34,997 nt of DNA. It comes from a virus. The notes under the pieces are model-generated. The model did no database searches. It worked only from the letters and a program-made list of their open reading frames with translations, and was not told where the DNA came from. Positions 764 through 34,997 of this stretch are shown piece after piece (positions within the stretch are counted from its first letter, which is position 1; every line of letters starts with the position of its first letter). The translations under genes were made by a program, and so were the position numbers. The stretch is from positions 1 to 34,997 of the IMG/VR virus record IMGVR_UViG_3300027980_000029; one strand, 5' to 3'.

Positions 764-1687
764 TCAGAACGGGATATCGTCCGGCGTGATGACCACCGGC
801 TCATCGCTGCGGGGCCGCTTCGGTTCCGGCTTCGGATTCTCGGCGGGTTCGAACAGTTCCTCGGTGAGTTCGTCGGCGCGGGTCTTGCGCTCATGACCGC
901 TGCCGGGGAGTTCGGGCATCGACGATGCCCCCACAAACTCAACACGATCCTCCTGCTCCAGTTGGTCGAGGACCGTGCCGAGTTCGGCGAACGCGGGCAG
1001 GTACTTGAACAGCCTGCGGATCGCCGTCTTGCGCGCCATCTCGATGTAGTCGCTCGCCCACGGCCCCCCCTGGCCGAACTTCGATCGCTTGCGGATCGCG
1101 TCGATCTCGGCCTTCGTCAGAACGTCGTGCATGTGATCGCCGCTCGGGAGCGTGGCGACGGCGTACACCAACCGCAGGTCGATGTTTGATCGCGGCCCGC
1201 CGTAGTCGGGGACGTGGATGATCTCATTCTGCGTGCCGCGACGATCCTCGAAACGATCCTCGGCGAACACCGGGACCGCCTCGATCTTGCGCACCGCGCC
1301 CGACCGGCTCGCCTGATGGATCATGCCCCGGTATCCGATCTGGACCTGCATCTCGGTGACGTAGGAGCCGTCGTCGCGCTTGTTGCTGTACGGGATCAGG
1401 TAGAGCAACCCGCGCTCGCGGTTGGGCTCCATGTTGAGGATCGTCACCTGGATCGCGGCGCGCTGCACGCTCTCGGGGTCGCAGAGCCACAGTTTCGGCT
1501 CGCGATGCACCTCGGTCATCATCAGGGCCAGCAGTTGCTCGGCCCGCTCCTGATCCTTCGAGGGCATCCGGCGAACGACCTTCTTGAGTAGCGTTTCGGA
1601 CCCCACCGCCTCGCCGATGGCGCGGAGATTGGAGCCCGCGTCGAGGGCGCCCCGGTTGTCGGGCTTGCGTTCGATCTGGTTGCTCAT
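764..1687 (-). CDS. recT: RecT-family single-strand annealing protein
   Basis: 307 residues, typical of phage RecT annealases that pair complementary single strands in recombination-dependent replication or repair. The core matches RecT: CDPESVQRAAIQVTILNMEP, then YLIPYSNKR, QVQIGYRGMIHQASRSGAVR (the IGYxG motif) and the GPWASDYIEMARKTAIRRLF block near residues 205-230. The C-terminal 55 residues are charged and proline-rich and end in PDDIPF, the same acidic tip that ends bacterial single-strand binding protein. It overlaps the gene before it by 4 bases and sits two genes downstream of the YqaJ exonuclease, its usual partner. Starts at ATG 1685-1687. Confidence 0.93.
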   Translation of the reverse strand: MSNQIERKPDNRGALDAGSNLRAIGEAVGSETLLKKVVRRMPSKDQERAEQLLALMMTEVHREPKLWLCDPESVQRAAIQVTILNMEPNRERGLLYLIPYSNKRDDGSYVTEMQVQIGYRGMIHQASRSGAVRKIEAVPVFAEDRFEDRRGTQNEIIHVPDYGGPRSNIDLRLVYAVATLPSGDHMHDVLTKAEIDAIRKRSKFGQGGPWASDYIEMARKTAIRRLFKYLPAFAELGTVLDQLEQEDRVEFVGASSMPELPGSGHERKTRADELTEELFEPAENPKPEPKRPRSDEPVVITPDDIPF

Positions 1688-1980
1688 GGCTGGTCATCCT
1701 CAAACGGGTCGATGTTGTGTGATTTGAGTTGCCCTTCAATCACATCCAACTGGTGAGCCCACTCTTTGAGAACCTGCTCCCTGATGCTCGCTTGGAGTTT
1801 GTCTGGAATAGGATGCGTGCTGTGCTGCCTCCAAGTCCCGTCATCCGGTGTTGAGATCCTGATCGGCGGCTTTGATGGGGTCTCGGCTGATTCTGATTCC
1901 GGTTTGGGGTCGATCCTTCGGATGATCTCGATCAACCTGTCTCGCTCTGCAAAAAGATGCTTGATTCCGGTGATGTTCAT
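1684..1980 (-). CDS. Hypothetical protein between the recombinase genes
   Basis: 98 residues lying between the exonuclease and annealase genes, joined to both by 4-base ATGA overlaps, so all three are translationally coupled. It has an N-terminal helix (HLFAERDRLIEIIRRIDP), a proline/serine-rich linker, a second helical segment around EQVLKEWAHQLDVIEGQLKS, and an acidic end. No family is recognised. Its position suggests an accessory factor for the recombination pair, an inference from context only. Confidence 0.7.
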   Translation of the reverse strand: MNITGIKHLFAERDRLIEIIRRIDPKPESESAETPSKPPIRISTPDDGTWRQHSTHPIPDKLQASIREQVLKEWAHQLDVIEGQLKSHNIDPFEDDQP

Positions 1981-2825
1981 TTGTTCCCCTTCAATCGGAA
2001 GTTCAGCGCCCGGAACTCGGACGGCTTCACGGTGTATTCCTTGCGGCTCTGCAACGCCAGCGACACGCGGAACCCGTCAGACTCCGCGATCTCCCCGTCG
2101 CCCATCGCCTCGATCAGCGCGGCCTTCGCGGCCTCAAGTTTCTGACTCGCCGCCTTGACATCATCGCGGGCGGCGCACGCGGCGCGGACGAGTTCGATCG
2201 GGACGCTCGCCACCTTGCCCGGCTCGCGCGGGATTCGCTTCAAGACCTCGACCGATGCCGTCTCTGGCGGCGGGACGCGCTTCTCGACGTGATCGCGCCA
2301 GAACGCCTCGCCACGGCTGACGATCATGTCGATCATCGTCGGGTGCCGCTTCACGACGTAGGTGCGGGTATCGAAGTTTGAGAATAGCCCCACGACGTAG
2401 GCGGTGTCAGCATCGCAGCAGTGGAGTTGGTGCTGCGCCTGCACCATGACGTATCGCGGGATCTCGTCGGTGCCCTCGTCGCCCCACTCGTCGAATACCG
2501 GCGAGTTGAACCGGACGGTCTTGACCTCGACGGGCTCGCCGTCTGTGGTCATGCCGTCAACGTTGGCGGCGAGGATGCCGCCCTTGCTGATGAACGTCTC
2601 GTCTCGGACGGCGATCGGGATGCCGATCATCTTGTCGGCGTGGTCGAGGACCGCCGCCTCGAAGTAGTTGCCCGCGTCGTACTCTTTGCGCCACGGTTTT
2701 TCGACGCCGAGTTTGGACCAATAGACATCACCCGCCGTGGCGTATGGGCTGACGCCGAGTATTGCGGGCGAGTCGCTGGACCCGACGTGCTGTCGCCGCT
2801 GCTCGCGTTGGGTGTCGGTAATCAT
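1977..2825 (-). CDS. YqaJ-type viral recombinase exonuclease
   Basis: 282 residues with the PD-(D/E)XK nuclease signature of the YqaJ/lambda-exonuclease family. It opens with GSSDSPAILGVSPY, the substrate-loop motif of YqaJ proteins. It then has GNYFEAAVLD with the conserved glutamate, ANVDGMTTDGEPVEVKT with the catalytic D...E-x-K, and VQAQHQLHCCDADTAYVVGL. Such enzymes resect double-strand ends to give 3' tails for the RecT partner, found here two genes downstream. The C-terminal 90 residues are helical and probably an accessory domain. Starts at ATG 2823-2825, overlapping the upstream gene by 4 bases. Confidence 0.92.
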   Translation of the reverse strand: MITDTQREQRRQHVGSSDSPAILGVSPYATAGDVYWSKLGVEKPWRKEYDAGNYFEAAVLDHADKMIGIPIAVRDETFISKGGILAANVDGMTTDGEPVEVKTVRFNSPVFDEWGDEGTDEIPRYVMVQAQHQLHCCDADTAYVVGLFSNFDTRTYVVKRHPTMIDMIVSRGEAFWRDHVEKRVPPPETASVEVLKRIPREPGKVASVPIELVRAACAARDDVKAASQKLEAAKAALIEAMGDGEIAESDGFRVSLALQSRKEYTVKPSEFRALNFRLKGNK

Positions 2826-3420: not shown

Positions 3421-3908
3421 TTCGACACCCCCACCGTGACAACGGGCGGACCCGGTTTCGACCTGTCGATAACGACCGCGTTTGGCGATTCTGATGTGGT
3501 CTTGACGCTGTTGCCCCACGCCGTCACGGTCGAGTTGCCCCACGCCGTCACGGTCGAGTTGCCCAACGCATACACATGCCGGTCGCCGGTGATCTCGTGT
3601 TCGCCATCGAGAATAACGCGGGCCTCGTGCCAGTCCGCCAGCGCGAGCCTGGCGCGGCGCTCGCAGTCCTCCGCGTCGTACCACTCGGGCAGCAGGTCTT
3701 GGTCAACGCGGTACGCCCATTCTTCGATGGGCCTGCGCATGTCGCCATCCGGCGGCGTGATCTCGACCGAAACAGACTTGATGAGCCGGGGTACGCGAGA
3801 TGTCTCCTCGGCGATGCCGTATTCCTCTCTGATCTTTGTGTGGTGGTCCGAAGACATGCTCCAGAATGCGGACTTCTTCGTCAGCACGAATGACGCTGGG
3901 TTGCACAT
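3417..3908 (-). CDS. Conserved phage protein with C-terminal AWGNSTVT repeats
   Basis: 163 residues, start ATG 3906-3908 overlapping the upstream TAA by one base. The N-terminus MCNPASFVLTKKSAFWS, then the SVEITPPDGDMRRPIEEW and YRVDQDLLPEWYDAE blocks, are the hallmarks of a phage/bacterial family whose members end in repeated YGNSTV-like octapeptides. After ARVILDGEHEITGDRHVYAL come two perfect copies of an eight-residue unit (A-W-G-N-S-T-V-T) and a degenerate third, which probably build turns of a small beta-helix. Other members can carry many more repeats, so this is a short version. Function unknown. Confidence 0.8.
   Translation of the reverse strand: MCNPASFVLTKKSAFWSMSSDHHTKIREEYGIAEETSRVPRLIKSVSVEITPPDGDMRRPIEEWAYRVDQDLLPEWYDAEDCERRARLALADWHEARVILDGEHEITGDRHVYALGNSTVTAWGNSTVTAWGNSVKTTSESPNAVVIDRSKPGPPVVTVGVSK
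3511..3558 (-). repeat. Two perfect 24-bp tandem repeats inside a coding sequence
   Basis: The 24-base unit starting TTGCCCCACGCC occurs at 3511-3534 and 3535-3558 with no mismatch, and an incomplete third copy follows from 3559. The length is a multiple of three and encodes the octapeptide repeat of the overlapping gene, so copy number can change without frameshift. Confidence 0.9.
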
Positions 3909-14882: not shown

Positions 14883-15733
14883 GGCATCGGCGGCACGAGC
14901 CCGAGCGGGTCGCCCGGTAGGAGTTGCGCGTCGCCGGGATCGTACACCGGCGCGGTGATGATTTCGGGCTCGGTCAGCGCCCCGGCCTGCGCCGCCCCCG
15001 CGACGCGGTACTCATCGAAGGGCGGGAGTTCCGGGATCGGGAGGTAAATCCCGTTCAGCGTGATGTCCTGCGGCTTCGCCGCGATGGGCGCCCTGCCGAT
15101 CCAGCGGTAGTTCACCGCAACGATGTGATCGGCGTCCGATGTCGCCCGGACCCGGTTGTACGACGCCCCCTGGAACAGCCACTTATTCGACGGGGCGGTC
15201 CCGAACGTGTGGATCTTGCCGGTCTGCCCAGCGACCACCGACAGCATGTTCAAGTCCCAGTCCGCGATGTTGATCGTGACCTCGAACACCTGCTCGGGAA
15301 TGATGTATTCGATCCACGTCGATTCGTACTCAAACTGGTCGCCGCCGCCGAACGGGGCGCCGATCGCCGTGAGGCGCTCGAAGACTTGCGGCTGACGGAT
15401 GACCCCGATCCGTGTGAGCCCAGAATCCGACTTGTAGCCCGCCGCCTTGTTGTCCTGCGTCGGCCAGACCTCGCCGGGCCTCGCGTAGAAGCACTCCGCG
15501 AACGACTTCTGCCCATCGCCGGTCGCGCGAAACTCGCGGGACTGGCAGACGAGTTGCGGGTTCACCGGGTCTTGCGCCCCGACGCGGGGAAACGCCCCGG
15601 GATCGGTTGTCGAGTCGAGTTCGGCGATGAATGACGGCGCGTCGATCAGGAACCCGCGCACGCGGCGAGGCGCGGAGCCGTCCCCGCCGTCGAAACTGGA
15701 GTAGAGTTCGGTGACTGTGGCGAACTGGCTCAT
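14879..15733 (-). CDS. Putative distal tail protein
   Basis: 284 residues, start ATG 15731-15733 in a 4-base overlap with the tape-measure gene. It is a beta-rich protein with the N-terminal segment DGSAPRRVRGFLIDAPSFIA and a middle rich in strands (WIEYIIPEQVFEVTINIADW). A proline-rich end (LPGDPLGLVPPMP) follows. The gene after the tape measure in siphoviruses usually encodes the distal tail protein joining tube and tip, so I assign that by position; the sequence itself does not prove it. Confidence 0.55.
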   Translation of the reverse strand: MSQFATVTELYSSFDGGDGSAPRRVRGFLIDAPSFIAELDSTTDPGAFPRVGAQDPVNPQLVCQSREFRATGDGQKSFAECFYARPGEVWPTQDNKAAGYKSDSGLTRIGVIRQPQVFERLTAIGAPFGGGDQFEYESTWIEYIIPEQVFEVTINIADWDLNMLSVVAGQTGKIHTFGTAPSNKWLFQGASYNRVRATSDADHIVAVNYRWIGRAPIAAKPQDITLNGIYLPIPELPPFDEYRVAGAAQAGALTEPEIITAPVYDPGDAQLLPGDPLGLVPPMP

Positions 15734-16515
15734 TGCTGCGGATCTCTCGTGTTGCGCGCGATCTCACGCAGGAGGTCGAGGAACTCTCGGGTCGCGTCGA
15801 GCCCGCCCGGGGATGTCCTGATCGGGCCGCCAATGTCGATGGGCGCCCGCGTGGATGTCGGCTCGGCGGGGGACTCCTGCTCCACGGCGCGAGCGCGCTC
15901 GGCGTCCCGCACCCCACGCGCGGCGAGTTGGTTGAGCCTCGACCGCTCGACCAACAGTGATTGGTATTCGTCATCCCTGGCGAGGACACGCTGGGCGCCA
16001 GCGGGGCCGCCCGTGTTGAGAGCCTTCTTCAGCCGCTCATTGATCGCGTCGTCGATCCTTCGGGCCTCAGCGAGAAACGCCTGCGTCCTCGCCTCAGAAT
16101 CTACCCCGGTCAGCGCGTCATAACTCTCCCGCATCCGGTCCAGAGATTCACGGGTCTTCTCGATCTCCCGCCGCGCCTTCGGCATCGCGCTGTGCGCGTC
16201 GGCAAACTTCTTGATCCCGATCGCGGCGGCGGCCAGAAGGCCAACGACCAGAGAAATAGCACCCGCGATCCCGGTCCAGATGCCGATCGTTGACGAGATC
16301 GCACCAGAGAACTTGCGGAAGCCCTCTGTGGACTTCTCAACCTTCTTTCCGACGTTGTCGAACCCGTCGCCGATCCGCTTCGTGTCGCCCTCGACCTGCT
16401 TGGCGGTCTTCTGCGTCTCCGAGCGCAGTTTCTCAAGTTCCGGCTGGATCTTCGACGAGTCCGCGCGGAGTTCGACGTAGGCCTCGCCGACCTTCTTGCG
16501 TCCGCCCTTAGCCAT
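15730..16515 (-). CDS. Very short tape-measure protein
   Basis: 261 residues. The start AYVELRADSSKIQPELEKLR is the classical N-terminal signature of tape-measure proteins. A helical charged region follows, then a membrane-active stretch around residues 72-105 (SSTIGIWTGIAGAISLVVGL and AAAAIGIKKF), then further coiled coil (ARREIEKTRESLDRMRESYD) and a disordered tail. Tape measures in siphoviruses usually run from 600 to more than 1,500 residues. At roughly 0.15 nm per residue this one would set a tail no longer than about 40 nm. Confidence 0.75.
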   Translation of the reverse strand: MAKGGRKKVGEAYVELRADSSKIQPELEKLRSETQKTAKQVEGDTKRIGDGFDNVGKKVEKSTEGFRKFSGAISSTIGIWTGIAGAISLVVGLLAAAAIGIKKFADAHSAMPKARREIEKTRESLDRMRESYDALTGVDSEARTQAFLAEARRIDDAINERLKKALNTGGPAGAQRVLARDDEYQSLLVERSRLNQLAARGVRDAERARAVEQESPAEPTSTRAPIDIGGPIRTSPGGLDATREFLDLLREIARNTRDPQQ

Positions 16516-27667: not shown

Positions 27668-29593
27668 TCATCGTACACCACCAGATCGGGCTCGGAAGTT
27701 CCTTGTCTCCCGGTGCGTTTCCTCGACCGGCGGGACGGTATAGGTGTATTCGATGGTCAGCGACGCGGCGGTCAGGCTCGGCATCACGTCTTTGTCGCTC
27801 TTATCGACGACGATGACGAACGATGGATCGGTCGCCGACGTGTTTCGCATGATGACAGCGAGGTTCGATCCCGAGTACCAACCGGCGCGGTCCACGACCT
27901 CCTGAACGGCGTTGGTGATGTCGGCTTGATGAACGCCGGTTGTGACCGCCGCCGCTGTCGCCGCGGTCGTGACGGTGCGGTTCGCCGGCGTGTCGGACGT
28001 AGCGAACTCGGCGCTCGTGTCGGCGTCCTCACAGTGGATCACGCCCGCTGGCGTTGAACCGATGGTGAGGTTCTCATACTCGAACGTGGCCGATTCGATC
28101 GTGGCGCCCTGCGGGATGTTGACCGCGACGAACCGGAACCCCGCAGACGATTCGAGCCCGCCGGAGAGCCCGAACGCGGCTGAGTTCTCGTTCCAGGTGT
28201 TCCCACCCGCGCCCGAGCCGGTGCCGTCGTTGGAGTTCTGATGGATTTCGAGGGTCTGCGACTGGGCGCTGTCCGCGACGGCGAGCATGAGGCCGATCGC
28301 ATCGCTGGTGATGACGTTGTAGCCGAGCGGGGTGCGGTGGGAATCCCATTCGACGCCGACGCCGCCGGCGTACAGGCCCTCGTCCTTCATTTCCTGCTGC
28401 GACTTGATGGCGGCGGGGTCGATGAATGTGCATCGGGCGCGGGCGGCGGCGATGGCGTAGAGGCTGGATCGATAGCCGTAGTCGGGGTCGTTGTCCTGTC
28501 CGAGCCCGTCTGCGGCGTGGTAGCCCTCCAGCCAGATGTTGAGTTTGGCGAGGTCGAACCCGCACTCAACCCAGACGGCCTCGAAGTGGTCGACGATCGC
28601 CTTGATGTTCGTCTCGAACGTGAACCGGTACGCCTCCTGCGCGACGGACGTTCCGCCCTGATCGGCCCACTCGTTGCCGCCGAGCGCGATGCGGAGGACG
28701 GCGTTCGGGGTGATGGATTCGCTGCCGCTATGAAGTATCCCTGTGTCTTTGAGCCGTTGCTTGAGGAAGGTGTCGTTGGCGGCGGTGGTCACGACCAGTT
28801 CATCCTTGCAGTCTTGGGCGGTGCCGCCGCCGAGGTTCCAGAGCGGGGAGACGTGGAGACCGGCGGTCACGTCGTCGAATCGCTGATACCACTCGCCCCA
28901 GGCGGCGATGCCGTTGTTGCTGGAGCCGGTGGTGAGGACAGAGACGGCGTAGGACTGGGTGTCCCAAACGGCGGTCCCGGCGGTCATTTCCAGGGCCTTG
29001 ACGAAGTGGATGTCGTCGTCGGCGTCGATCGCGTAGGCGTCGCCCACGTCGAGGTTCTGCGAGGACACGCCGTCGTTCTCGAAGACCTTGAACTGGAGGA
29101 CCGAGCCGGTCTGGGCGGTGTCGCCGTAGTAGCGGACCCACCACGAAACATCATGGGCGGCGAGGTCGTAGTCGTCGATCATCTGCCCGCCCGCGTGGTT
29201 GCGGGGCAGGCCCTTGAACCCGACGTGCTGCGAGGACGCGATCGCCTGATCGGGCATGTAGATGTTGCCCGCGTTGGTGTTCACGCTGCGGGTGTACGGG
29301 TCGTAGTTCGTGCCAGTGAGGTTGATCGTGATGGGTGATGAGACGGTTCGGTCGGAGAAGATGGTCTGGCACTGTCCGCCGTTGCCGCAGTGGGGTCCGT
29401 GCATCCAGTAGGCGATGCCGTGGTCGTTTTGGGCGGTGATGGCGATGGCGGCTCGGGTGCCGTGGTAGAGGGCCGAGCCGCCCGCGTTCGTCTCGTTGGA
29501 GTCGCCGATCGAGAAGACGGTGAGCGTGCCGGTGTCGCGTGCGTAGGCGAGTGAGGCGCCGACGATGCCTGGGCGGTAGTGGCCGACGGCCAT
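27668..29593 (-). CDS. Tail protein with SGNH/GDSL-like hydrolase domain
   Basis: 641 residues from ATG 29591-29593. Near the N-terminus TLTVFSIGDSNETNAGG gives the block I nucleophile (Gly30-Asp31-Ser32-Asn33), and ALRIALGGNEWADQGG-like sequence gives the block III GxN (about 305-309). Asp417 and His419 in VEWDSHRTPLGYN are probable block V residues, though the usual DxxH spacing is shortened. Residues about 450-635 form a beta-sandwich (NIPQGATIESATFEYENLTI, TNAVQEVVDRAGWYSGSNLA) of a type found in many planctomycete secreted proteins. Likely a receptor-degrading or deacetylating tail spike. Confidence 0.7.
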   Translation of the reverse strand: MAVGHYRPGIVGASLAYARDTGTLTVFSIGDSNETNAGGSALYHGTRAAIAITAQNDHGIAYWMHGPHCGNGGQCQTIFSDRTVSSPITINLTGTNYDPYTRSVNTNAGNIYMPDQAIASSQHVGFKGLPRNHAGGQMIDDYDLAAHDVSWWVRYYGDTAQTGSVLQFKVFENDGVSSQNLDVGDAYAIDADDDIHFVKALEMTAGTAVWDTQSYAVSVLTTGSSNNGIAAWGEWYQRFDDVTAGLHVSPLWNLGGGTAQDCKDELVVTTAANDTFLKQRLKDTGILHSGSESITPNAVLRIALGGNEWADQGGTSVAQEAYRFTFETNIKAIVDHFEAVWVECGFDLAKLNIWLEGYHAADGLGQDNDPDYGYRSSLYAIAAARARCTFIDPAAIKSQQEMKDEGLYAGGVGVEWDSHRTPLGYNVITSDAIGLMLAVADSAQSQTLEIHQNSNDGTGSGAGGNTWNENSAAFGLSGGLESSAGFRFVAVNIPQGATIESATFEYENLTIGSTPAGVIHCEDADTSAEFATSDTPANRTVTTAATAAAVTTGVHQADITNAVQEVVDRAGWYSGSNLAVIMRNTSATDPSFVIVVDKSDKDVMPSLTAASLTIEYTYTVPPVEETHRETRNFRARSGGVR

Positions 29594-32447: not shown

Positions 32448-32789
32448 TCAATCCTGCTTGTGATTGATAGATTCGGGTGTGTCGGGGCCGTCGAGGTGGG
32501 CGAGGATGTTTTTCCAATCATCTGGATCAATCTCTATCCAACTCAGTGGATCATCGCTATCGTGGATCACTTCAATACGTTCCGCCAACTCCCTCCCCGC
32601 CGCGACGTGGGCTTCGAGGGTGGCGAGGCGGGCCTTGAGTTTGTTGTTCTCTATCGCAAGGGCGGTGCTTCCGGTAGCAACTGGCGTCCCCCTGATTGGC
32701 ATTCCGTCGACTCGACCGATTGTGGTTCCGGCCTTCACGTGCCCGAGGGTCAGTTTCCCGATGTCTCTCATTGGATCTTCGTTGCTCAT
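32448..32789 (-). CDS. Hypothetical protein sharing a C-terminal module with the junction gene
   Basis: 113 residues from ATG 32787-32789, overlapping the dockerin gene's stop. An N-terminal part unique to this gene (MRDIGKLTLGHVKAGTTIGR, GTPVATGSTALAIENNKLKA) leads into ARLATLEAHVAAGRELAERI and onward for about 50 residues identical to the gene at the contig junction. The first words MRDI-KL occur in both, so the entire pair may derive from one gene with a replaced middle. Function unknown. Confidence 0.7.
   Translation of the reverse strand: MSNEDPMRDIGKLTLGHVKAGTTIGRVDGMPIRGTPVATGSTALAIENNKLKARLATLEAHVAAGRELAERIEVIHDSDDPLSWIEIDPDDWKNILAHLDGPDTPESINHKQD
32479..32634. repeat. 156-bp direct repeat, second copy at the contig junction
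   Basis: 32508-32634 is identical to 1-127, and 32479-32507 is identical to 34873-34901. Taken round the junction the two copies are 156 bases without mismatch and about 2.4 kb apart. Both lie in the same reading frame of two genes and encode the same C-terminal module. Perfect identity suggests a recent duplication or gene conversion. Confidence 0.9.
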
Positions 32790-34180
32790 CACATTTCTCC
32801 GATCAGGATGGCGAGGTCGGACGTATCGACCACGCCGTCGTTGTTGAGGTCGCACACCGGGTTGTTTGTTCCCATCGCAATAATCATTATCGTTGCGTCG
32901 GCGGTGTCGATCGCGCCGTCGCCGTTGAGGTCGTAGAGCGGGTTGTAGATCGGGGCGGCGGCGATCGTTGTGCGCGTCAGGTGGGCTTGCCAGCCGGTCG
33001 AGCCCATCGTCGCGGTGTGCGACCAGAACACGCCGGGCGATGTCGGGTCGGCGTCGATCGAGTAGAACGCGCCCCAATCGGCGGGGACCGGGGCAGATGA
33101 CGTTGCGAGGACAACGGGCGGGCGGAACTCGCCGGTGGGGTCGCCGGGGAACCGGACGGCGCGGATGACCGCGTGCCCGGTGCTGCTGCAAACGATGACC
33201 GCGTTCCCGCCGGCGTCGGCGGCGATGGCCGGGGTGTAGGTGTTGGCCCCGGTGTCGATGGAGCCGTGCTGCTCGAGGGCGACGGCCTGCCCGCTGTTGG
33301 GCCAGCCGTTGAGGTTGATTTCGTACCAGCGGACCACGGCGCGGTTGTCGTTGGTGATGGTGTGGGTGAGCCAGAGGGATTCCCCGACGATGCAGGAGGC
33401 TTGGAAGTCGCGCGTGCCGAAGCCCGCCGGCGGGTCGCTCTGCCACGGGATGTCGCAGACCGTGTGCGACCACGGCCATGATTGCGAGTCGTGCCGCCCG
33501 TTGATGCGGACGCGGCTGATCGAGCCGGAGTCGGCGGCGGTGAGGATCATTCGACCGTCGCCAGCCCCGCTCGCGGCGTTGGCGGCGAACCTGCGAGCCT
33601 CGTCCGATGCCTGCCCCACGCCGGGGTAGGCGGCGGGGTTGAACATGGTGTCGTTGGTGTACCAGAGGGCCCACGAACCGGCGCCGGTCGAGTAGTCGAA
33701 ACTGACGTAGAGCCCGTCGCCGCTGACACCGATCGAGATGTAGTCGGTGGCGGTGTTGGGCATGTTGACGCGATCGCGGCGGACGAACCAGGAGTCATCG
33801 ACGCCCCCAGCATCAGAGACGGCGAGCGCGACGTACTCGTCTGCGCCGTCACGCCAGAGGGCGGCGACGTAGTAACGGTCGGTGGTGGCGTTGTAGATCG
33901 CGCGGGCGTAGCGGGCGTCCTGCGGGGCGATCACCCACGGCCAGAGCGCGTCGAACGCGAGCCCGCCCATCCGCTGCCCGGTGGCCTTGCTGAACCAACC
34001 GAGTTCGCCGGCGACGGTGGCGACGACGTGGGCTGGACCCACCGCGAGGTCGGGCGACGGCATCGCCGCGCCATTGTCGGCGAACGAGGCCCACGTCGCG
34101 TCGGTCGCGGTCTGCGCGAGCGCCGTTGGGCTGAACACCGCCGGGACCAGCAGGAATCGCCAGAGTTTGGTCAGCAGCAT
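32789..34180 (-). CDS. Secreted beta-propeller-like protein with C-terminal dockerin repeats
   Basis: 463 residues from ATG 34178-34180. A signal peptide (MLLTKLWRFLLVPAVFSPTA, cleavage after ALA) is followed by about 380 residues of beta-propeller-like repeats such as MPSPDLAVGPAHVVATVAGE, ALWRDGADEYVALAVSDAGG and ISIGVSGDGLYVSFDYSTG. Residues 415-463 hold two calcium loops, DLNGDGAIDTAD (417-428) and DLNNDGVVDTSD (444-455), which are dockerin type I repeats as seen on many secreted Phycisphaerales proteins. It is out of place among phage early genes and probably acquired from a host. Confidence 0.8.
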   Translation of the reverse strand: MLLTKLWRFLLVPAVFSPTALAQTATDATWASFADNGAAMPSPDLAVGPAHVVATVAGELGWFSKATGQRMGGLAFDALWPWVIAPQDARYARAIYNATTDRYYVAALWRDGADEYVALAVSDAGGVDDSWFVRRDRVNMPNTATDYISIGVSGDGLYVSFDYSTGAGSWALWYTNDTMFNPAAYPGVGQASDEARRFAANAASGAGDGRMILTAADSGSISRVRINGRHDSQSWPWSHTVCDIPWQSDPPAGFGTRDFQASCIVGESLWLTHTITNDNRAVVRWYEINLNGWPNSGQAVALEQHGSIDTGANTYTPAIAADAGGNAVIVCSSTGHAVIRAVRFPGDPTGEFRPPVVLATSSAPVPADWGAFYSIDADPTSPGVFWSHTATMGSTGWQAHLTRTTIAAAPIYNPLYDLNGDGAIDTADATIMIIAMGTNNPVCDLNNDGVVDTSDLAILIGEM

Positions 34181-34249
34181 GGTTCTTTCCTTGTGAGTGG
34201 GAGTCGGTCGGGGTCCGCGTCGGGATACCGCGCCATGATAACCTTGTGG

Positions 34250-34639
34250 TCAGTCCAGCAGCACGCCGCACCCGCTGACGGGCTTCGCGCGTTCGGGGAT
34301 CACGGAAACGGACGACCACCGCCCGTTTTTCAGGCTGACGACGCGGAGTTCGCAGGGGCCGTACTTTTTCCACAGGTTCTTTTTCATGCGGAATACGGCG
34401 GTTTCGGCGCCTTTGACATCGACGAAGTATGCGCACGTCGGCTCGACCACGAAGAAGTCCGGCTGGTAGATCGTGTCCGCGCCGAGCCTCAGCCTCGGCT
34501 GCGGCATCCACCACGCGACTTCGCCGTTGGCGGTGAGCAGGTCCAGCATCTCGGCGTACTGCGCCTCGGCCTTCGACGCGAACGTGATGCCGCGATACTC
34601 GGTGCGGACGTTGCGGTACTTGTTGTGCTTCTTTTTCAT
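34250..34639 (-). CDS. DUF1064-type nuclease-like protein
   Basis: 129 residues from ATG 34637-34639 in a 4-base overlap. KYRNVRTEYRGITFASKAEA, then YAEMLDLLTANGEVAWW and QPRLRLGADTIYQPDFFV, and YFVDVKGAETAVFRMKKNLW reproduce the DUF1064 pattern: a K-x-E-A helix and the D...(V/E)D-V-K-G motif of PD-(D/E)XK nucleases. The metal-binding set would be Glu in SKAEA, Asp in QPDF and Asp-x-Lys in VDVKG. Such phage proteins may resolve branched DNA. The recombination genes of the same unit lie upstream in transcription order. Confidence 0.8.
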   Translation of the reverse strand: MKKKHNKYRNVRTEYRGITFASKAEAQYAEMLDLLTANGEVAWWMPQPRLRLGADTIYQPDFFVVEPTCAYFVDVKGAETAVFRMKKNLWKKYGPCELRVVSLKNGRWSSVSVIPERAKPVSGCGVLLD

Positions 34640-34860: not shown

Positions 34861-34997
34861 GGTGTCTCCTTCGTGTCGGGGCCGTCGAGGTGGGCGAGGA
34901 TGTTTTTCCAATCATCTGGATCAATCTCTATCCAACTCAGTGGATCATCGCTATCGTGGATCACTTCAATACGTTCCGCCAACTCCCTCCCCGCCGC
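34839..34997 (-). CDS. 3' part of the junction-spanning hypothetical gene
   Basis: The reading frame enters from the right edge in the duplicated C-terminal module, passes HLDGPDTKETPCLKTDQ and stops at TGA 34841-34839. The last 96 bases of this segment are the same as bases 1-96, so they must be counted once when the gene is joined with 1-243. Confidence 0.65.
   Translation of the reverse strand, partial: AAGRELAERIEVIHDSDDPLSWIEIDPDDWKNILAHLDGPDTKETPCLKTDQ
34902..34997. repeat. 96-bp terminal direct repeat (identical to 1-96)
   Basis: The last 96 bases equal the first 96 without mismatch, the usual sign of a circular or circularly permuted genome assembled linearly; the unit length would be 34,901 bases. 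It is part of the 156-bp repeat that has another copy at 32479-32634, so the overlap does not by itself prove closure. The reading frame continues across the junction, which supports it. Confidence 0.85.

Follow-up and report, generated by a model that had tools for sequence, protein, structure and literature searches.

The 34,997-nucleotide window (the whole stretch of viral DNA analysed here, IMG/VR record IMGVR_UViG_3300027980_000029) encodes a 463-residue protein (P0001; 32789-34180, minus strand) in which a signal-peptide-like start and a C-terminal type I dockerin enclose a body related to proteins of the planctomycete class Phycisphaerae, and in a sister phage an unrelated body stands between the same signal-peptide start and the same dockerin end. 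Because the ends are conserved and everything between them is unrelated, the locus appears to be a cassette, with a fixed export signal and dockerin and an exchanged cargo, which is the main point beyond the first-pass annotation of this DNA. The explanation that we favour, at a probability of about one half, is a surface-directed accessory cassette, the product of which would be exported and docked by its dockerin at the host envelope during infection, with the cargo acting on host surface proteins. The most likely host, judging from this accessory gene, is a Phycisphaerae planctomycete. The first-pass annotation had placed a gene at these positions, and an open reading frame occupies them exactly, on the minus strand; its interpretation as a whole holds in part, in that the product appears to be exported, dockerin-bearing and accessory, while the propeller fold given to the body was not confirmed and the description as a moron became doubtful.

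A search of IMG/VR with the dockerin alone retrieved the sister phage, a 38.9-kb contig (IMGVR_UViG_3300006467_000362; L141, L147, L148 and G454) that shares 87-94% identity with the window in a set of genes including RecT, YqaJ and DUF1064 and is colinear with it across the cassette locus, the structural genes differing at the DNA level. In the corresponding position, and with matching neighbours, the sister encodes a 343-residue dockerin protein (PF00404, 31.8 bits) with its own predicted signal peptide, and the dockerin gene therefore truly belongs to the phage. The two genes have in common a 5' block (34152-34244, minus strand; leader, ribosome-binding site, start codon and first signal-peptide codons) that is 92% identical over 93 nt, and a 3' block consisting of the second dockerin repeat (32792-32864, minus strand) that is 97% identical over 73 nt, with two synonymous and no nonsynonymous changes. 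Window and sister show no significant similarity anywhere between the two blocks, and the first dockerin repeats differ too. The sister body matched nothing in Pfam or in GenBank phages and found no convincing Planctomycetota relative in searches of 392-397 genomes; a single-sequence AlphaFold model of the sister cassette protein has a pLDDT of 31.

The 3' break coincides with the beginning of dockerin repeat 2. The two repeats of the dockerin resemble each other in DNA sequence, repeat 1 of the window aligning with repeat 2 of the sister (80% over 49 nt). From these two cases, the only independent cassettes known, we infer that the exchange was made by the RecE/RecT-type system of the phage, with dockerin-coding DNA as a homology arm. 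Phycisphaerae phages in general might run a cargo-exchange platform, in which a fixed export signal and dockerin are plugged into the dockerin-dependent surface machinery of the host, and recombinases take new cargoes from host dockerin genes, using dockerin-coding DNA as the shared homology arm; this extension is offered tentatively and is rather improbable.

The phage setting ascribed to the gene by the first-pass annotation is evident from the rest of the window, a tailed-phage genome with an HK97-type capsid, portal, large terminase, tail proteins, a replication initiator, a RecT-like single-strand annealing protein (764-1687, minus strand; PF03837, 5e-35; phrog_148) and a YqaJ/RecE-like exonuclease (1977-2825, minus strand; PF09588, 2e-12; phrog_434). 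The cassette lies between the recombination genes and the packaging genes. Its upstream neighbour is a DUF1064 or Holliday-junction-resolvase-like gene (34250-34639, minus strand; PF06356, 3e-9; phrog_190, 3e-24) that is conserved in the sister (90.5% nucleotide identity), and its downstream neighbour is a small ORF (A, 113 residues; 32448-32789, minus strand), the start codon of which overlaps the stop codon of the cassette gene. No match to the sigma-70 consensus, the one promoter type sought, was found upstream of the cassette, and terminators around it were predicted at chance level, none of them convincing.

The first 96 bp of the window are repeated exactly at its end (1-96 = 34902-34997) and the gene order of the sister continues unbroken across the two ends; the genome, of about 34.9 kb, is accordingly either circular or terminally redundant. 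ORF A contains a 156-bp repeat, R (copy 1, 32479-32634, plus strand), which it shares exactly with a paralogous small ORF (B, 101 residues) lying across the window ends, where the second copy occupies 34873-34997 and 97-127; the two copies flank a 2.4-kb segment comprising the cassette, the DUF1064 gene and a 91-residue ORF. In the sister phage, ORFs A and B are represented by a chimeric version, and contigs from two other datasets break at R. That the contig and the segment end in the same repeat might suggest host contamination or a chimeric assembly, an explanation rejected on the grounds that the independent sister genome has a dockerin gene at the same locus between the same neighbours, that codon usage of the cassette gene resembles that of the phage's other genes, and that the segment recurs unchanged in another dataset; it is left with a negligible probability. 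The open frame, the phage-like codon usage and the identical copy of the gene in an IMG/VR contig of a different dataset (L002) suggest, furthermore, that the gene is an intact, strongly diverged member of its family and not a decaying one.

The signal peptide that the first-pass annotation had reported agrees with sequence and hydropathy: residues 1-22 (34115-34180, minus strand), MLLTKLWRFLLVPAVFSPTALA, end in an AxA site followed by Q and are predicted from sequence to be of Sec type, and the most hydrophobic 11-mer of the whole protein is located there. Just before the ATG stands a ribosome-binding-site-like AAGGAAAG (34185-34192, minus strand), identical in the sister phage. A possible upstream ORF of 21 codons (MARYPDADPDRLPLTRKEPCC; 34171-34236, minus strand) overlaps the cassette start, and is also kept in the sister phage, as MARYPDMDPDRFPLTRKEPCC.

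At the other end of the protein, residues 416-461 (32798-32935, minus strand) constitute a type I dockerin that scores above the cut-off of Pfam Dockerin_1 (PF00404; 30.8 bits versus 22.9, E = 3.3e-7). Both of the calcium loops that had been noted earlier, DLNGDGAIDTAD (residues 417-428; 32897-32932, minus strand) and DLNNDGVVDTSD (residues 444-455; 32816-32851, minus strand), are complete, with ligands at positions 1, 3, 5, 9 and 12. For a loop motif picked after being seen in the protein, two occurrences were obtained in 0 of 100,000 shuffles of the protein and at least one in 57 of 100,000. P0001 resembles other type I dockerin proteins, cellulosomal and non-cellulosomal, in its two C-terminal DxNxDGxxDxxD loops and its predicted export, and differs from them in being phage-encoded and small, with no glycoside hydrolase and no cohesin partner found. 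Pfam scans of P0001 yielded no catalytic domain such as might mark a cellulosome component, and the larger window proteins that were scanned yielded no cohesin match.

Possibly the dockerin is not a cohesin ligand at all, but a sorting or anchoring tag as in the proteins that NCBI names "GC-type dockerin domain-anchored", and the cassette serves to display its cargo on the envelope. The NCBI model of the GC-type dockerin (NF041540) is matched by 7 of 24 members of the body family, and most dockerin-rich genomes have no recognisable cohesin, both of which would suit such a tag; the phage dockerin, however, reaches only 17.3 bits with this model (cut-off 29), ends in IGEM with no terminal GC motif, and passes the cut-off of the ordinary Dockerin_1, so that anchoring of this type is considered unlikely.

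The body, or cargo (residues 28-405; 32966-34099, minus strand), aligns throughout with a family of exported proteins of Planctomycetota. In the class to which a Phycisphaerales genome belongs, 71 of 397 genomes carry homologues, the best of them matching at 33% identity (E = 5e-35) over query residues 9-373 of 377, which amounts to whole-body homology; of 246 genomes from the phylum, 28 proved to contain the family when searched with a 24-member profile. Members such as L107 (Phycisphaerales UBA1910), L112 and L116 start with W-x-PPDP-x-AVGP-x-HVV, and many carry a dockerin after the body, as the phage protein does. Most host homologues are longer than the phage protein, which is without their N-terminal extension of about 120-490 residues. 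The protein search of planctomycete genomes proposed with the first-pass annotation thus returned Phycisphaerae proteins, many with dockerins, as the best matches of the body, not merely unrelated bacteria or virion proteins, and no phage family matched; this agrees with the earlier description of the architecture, given there as one of Phycisphaerales secreted proteins and supported here as of Phycisphaerae type. One host homologue led to distant relatives on plasmids of Deinococcus, Streptomyces, Bradyrhizobium and haloarchaea, and the body family alone is therefore not specific to planctomycetes; it is the combination of body family and dockerin that appears to point to them.

Pfam and the PDB gave no match to the body, even when the 24-member alignment profile was used, and its single-sequence AlphaFold model is strand-rich with a pLDDT of 40; the profile has a weak off-diagonal match to itself (P = 0.05). 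The "beta-propeller-like" fold named by the first-pass annotation is plausible and was not confirmed.

No other member of the family is nearly as diverged as the phage copy, the branch of which is about ten times the median. Among 77 positions at which the remaining members are at least 90% conserved, the phage copy keeps 40, the lowest number in the family, and so is missing 37 near-invariant residues, whereas other members keep 77-100% of these positions. Such a loss of near-invariant residues, together with the long branch, makes a conserved function of the phage body doubtful, and it weighs against the explanation that P0001 is the product of an auxiliary fitness gene, the cargo of which keeps the activity of the host family (such as adhesion or dealing with extracellular polymers) and gives the infected cell an advantage, the dockerin being a by-product of the gene's host origin. 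The relationship of the body to host proteins speaks for an auxiliary gene, as does a precedent in which a cultured planctomycete releases a chronic phage carrying auxiliary metabolic genes (PMC10945688). With a sister cargo that has no convincing relative in Planctomycetota, an auxiliary gene of this kind is nevertheless improbable, if worth keeping in mind.

P0001 had no match in the GenBank phage records searched, in PHROGs or in plasmid records, in keeping with the earlier judgement that it is not a known virion protein. Neither the cargo of the window nor that of the sister was found in GenBank phages. Within IMG/VR, the body profile retrieved this phage's own segment only, the sister body retrieved the sister only, and the DNA pattern of the conserved 5' end retrieved these two phages with no third example. 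A dockerin was absent from all 50 terminase relatives, a set with many partial records, and the stretch examined of a relative with a similar YqaJ (L151, 35%) contains no dockerin motif. The open literature, as judged from titles and abstracts, yielded no phage dockerins.

Exposed binding domains are present on phage tails and capsids, and P0001 could by analogy be a virion component (a fibre, decoration or adhesin) with a dockerin that binds host or virion partners; against this stand the predicted signal peptide, the location of the gene amid recombination genes, apart from the tail module, and the lack of a structural PHROG match, so that a place in the virion is very unlikely. Surface-modifying morons and superinfection-exclusion proteins of phages are accessory, exported and absent from most relatives, and the cassette protein is likewise accessory, predicted to be exported and absent from most relatives; it differs from them in being dockerin-based, in having its cargo swapped between fixed ends, and in belonging to a phage in which no tyrosine integrase was found. 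The term moron, used in the first-pass annotation, is apt inasmuch as the gene is absent from the 50 (often partial) terminase relatives and its body has been swapped in the sister, absence from most relatives with swapping or gain being a trait of morons. In the sense of lysogenic conversion it is doubtful, given that the cassette shows no convincing promoter or terminator of its own, and unsupported, given that a search for tyrosine-type integrases yielded none in either this phage or the sister.

Dockerins occur in 45 of 61 genomes of the candidate host class, with up to 70 per genome. Recognisable cohesins, a search for which had been suggested, are indeed present in the class (37 of 248 genomes); an approximate genome join puts them in no more than 4 of 21 dockerin-rich genomes and shows no association with the body family (Fisher p = 0.62). 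As the distribution of cohesins is patchy and unrelated to that of the body family, the dockerin may have some other partner or none at all. Cohesin and dockerin matches in one open frame were observed twice in a Phycisphaerae sample (G074, C226:23350-24201; G115, C35:2257-2946), and these frames are possible adaptor scaffolds. A cohesin/dockerin surface complex, the "planctosome", has been proposed as a hypothetical model for the Phycisphaerae family Nemodlikiaceae (PMC6461901); it concerns the same class of bacteria and non-cellulosomal dockerins, and differs from the phage cassette in that the passages describing it present a host-encoded system with a hypothetical peptidase scaffold and mention no phage part.

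If the locus is a surface-directed accessory cassette, a protein with a variable cargo and a fixed dockerin end would be made during infection and leave the cytoplasm via Sec, and its dockerin would bind the same partner as the dockerin proteins of the host. Docking would bring the cargo to the cell envelope or into extracellular complexes of the host, where it might act on host surface proteins by competition, masking or alteration, for example to keep out other phages. The cargo in this phage has diverged strongly from the exported-protein family of the host to which it is related, and the cargo of the sister is an unrelated domain. Conservation of the dockerin end, as against the change of cargo, suggests that docking is the common purpose, and may be taken as independent evidence of a real dockerin partner at the host surface. 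The dozens of dockerins encoded in a planctomycete genome are without an agreed role, and little is known of planctomycete phages; the phage protein, small and expressible, could be used to find the dockerin partner. Docking by a dockerin would, if this explanation is true, be a new route for phage action on the host envelope.

Three other features of the window deserve mention. A 24-nt tandem repeat (3510-3569) lies within an ORF with GNSTVTAW units, and an otherwise nearly identical contig (L149, 3300027828_000299) is without about 45 nt at this place. The only tape-measure-like protein found is 261 residues long (15730-16515, minus strand), which is short for a siphovirus. A 641-residue protein adjoining the terminase genes (27668-29593, minus strand) has no PHROG match and carries an N-terminal GDSN motif; it is perhaps an SGNH hydrolase.
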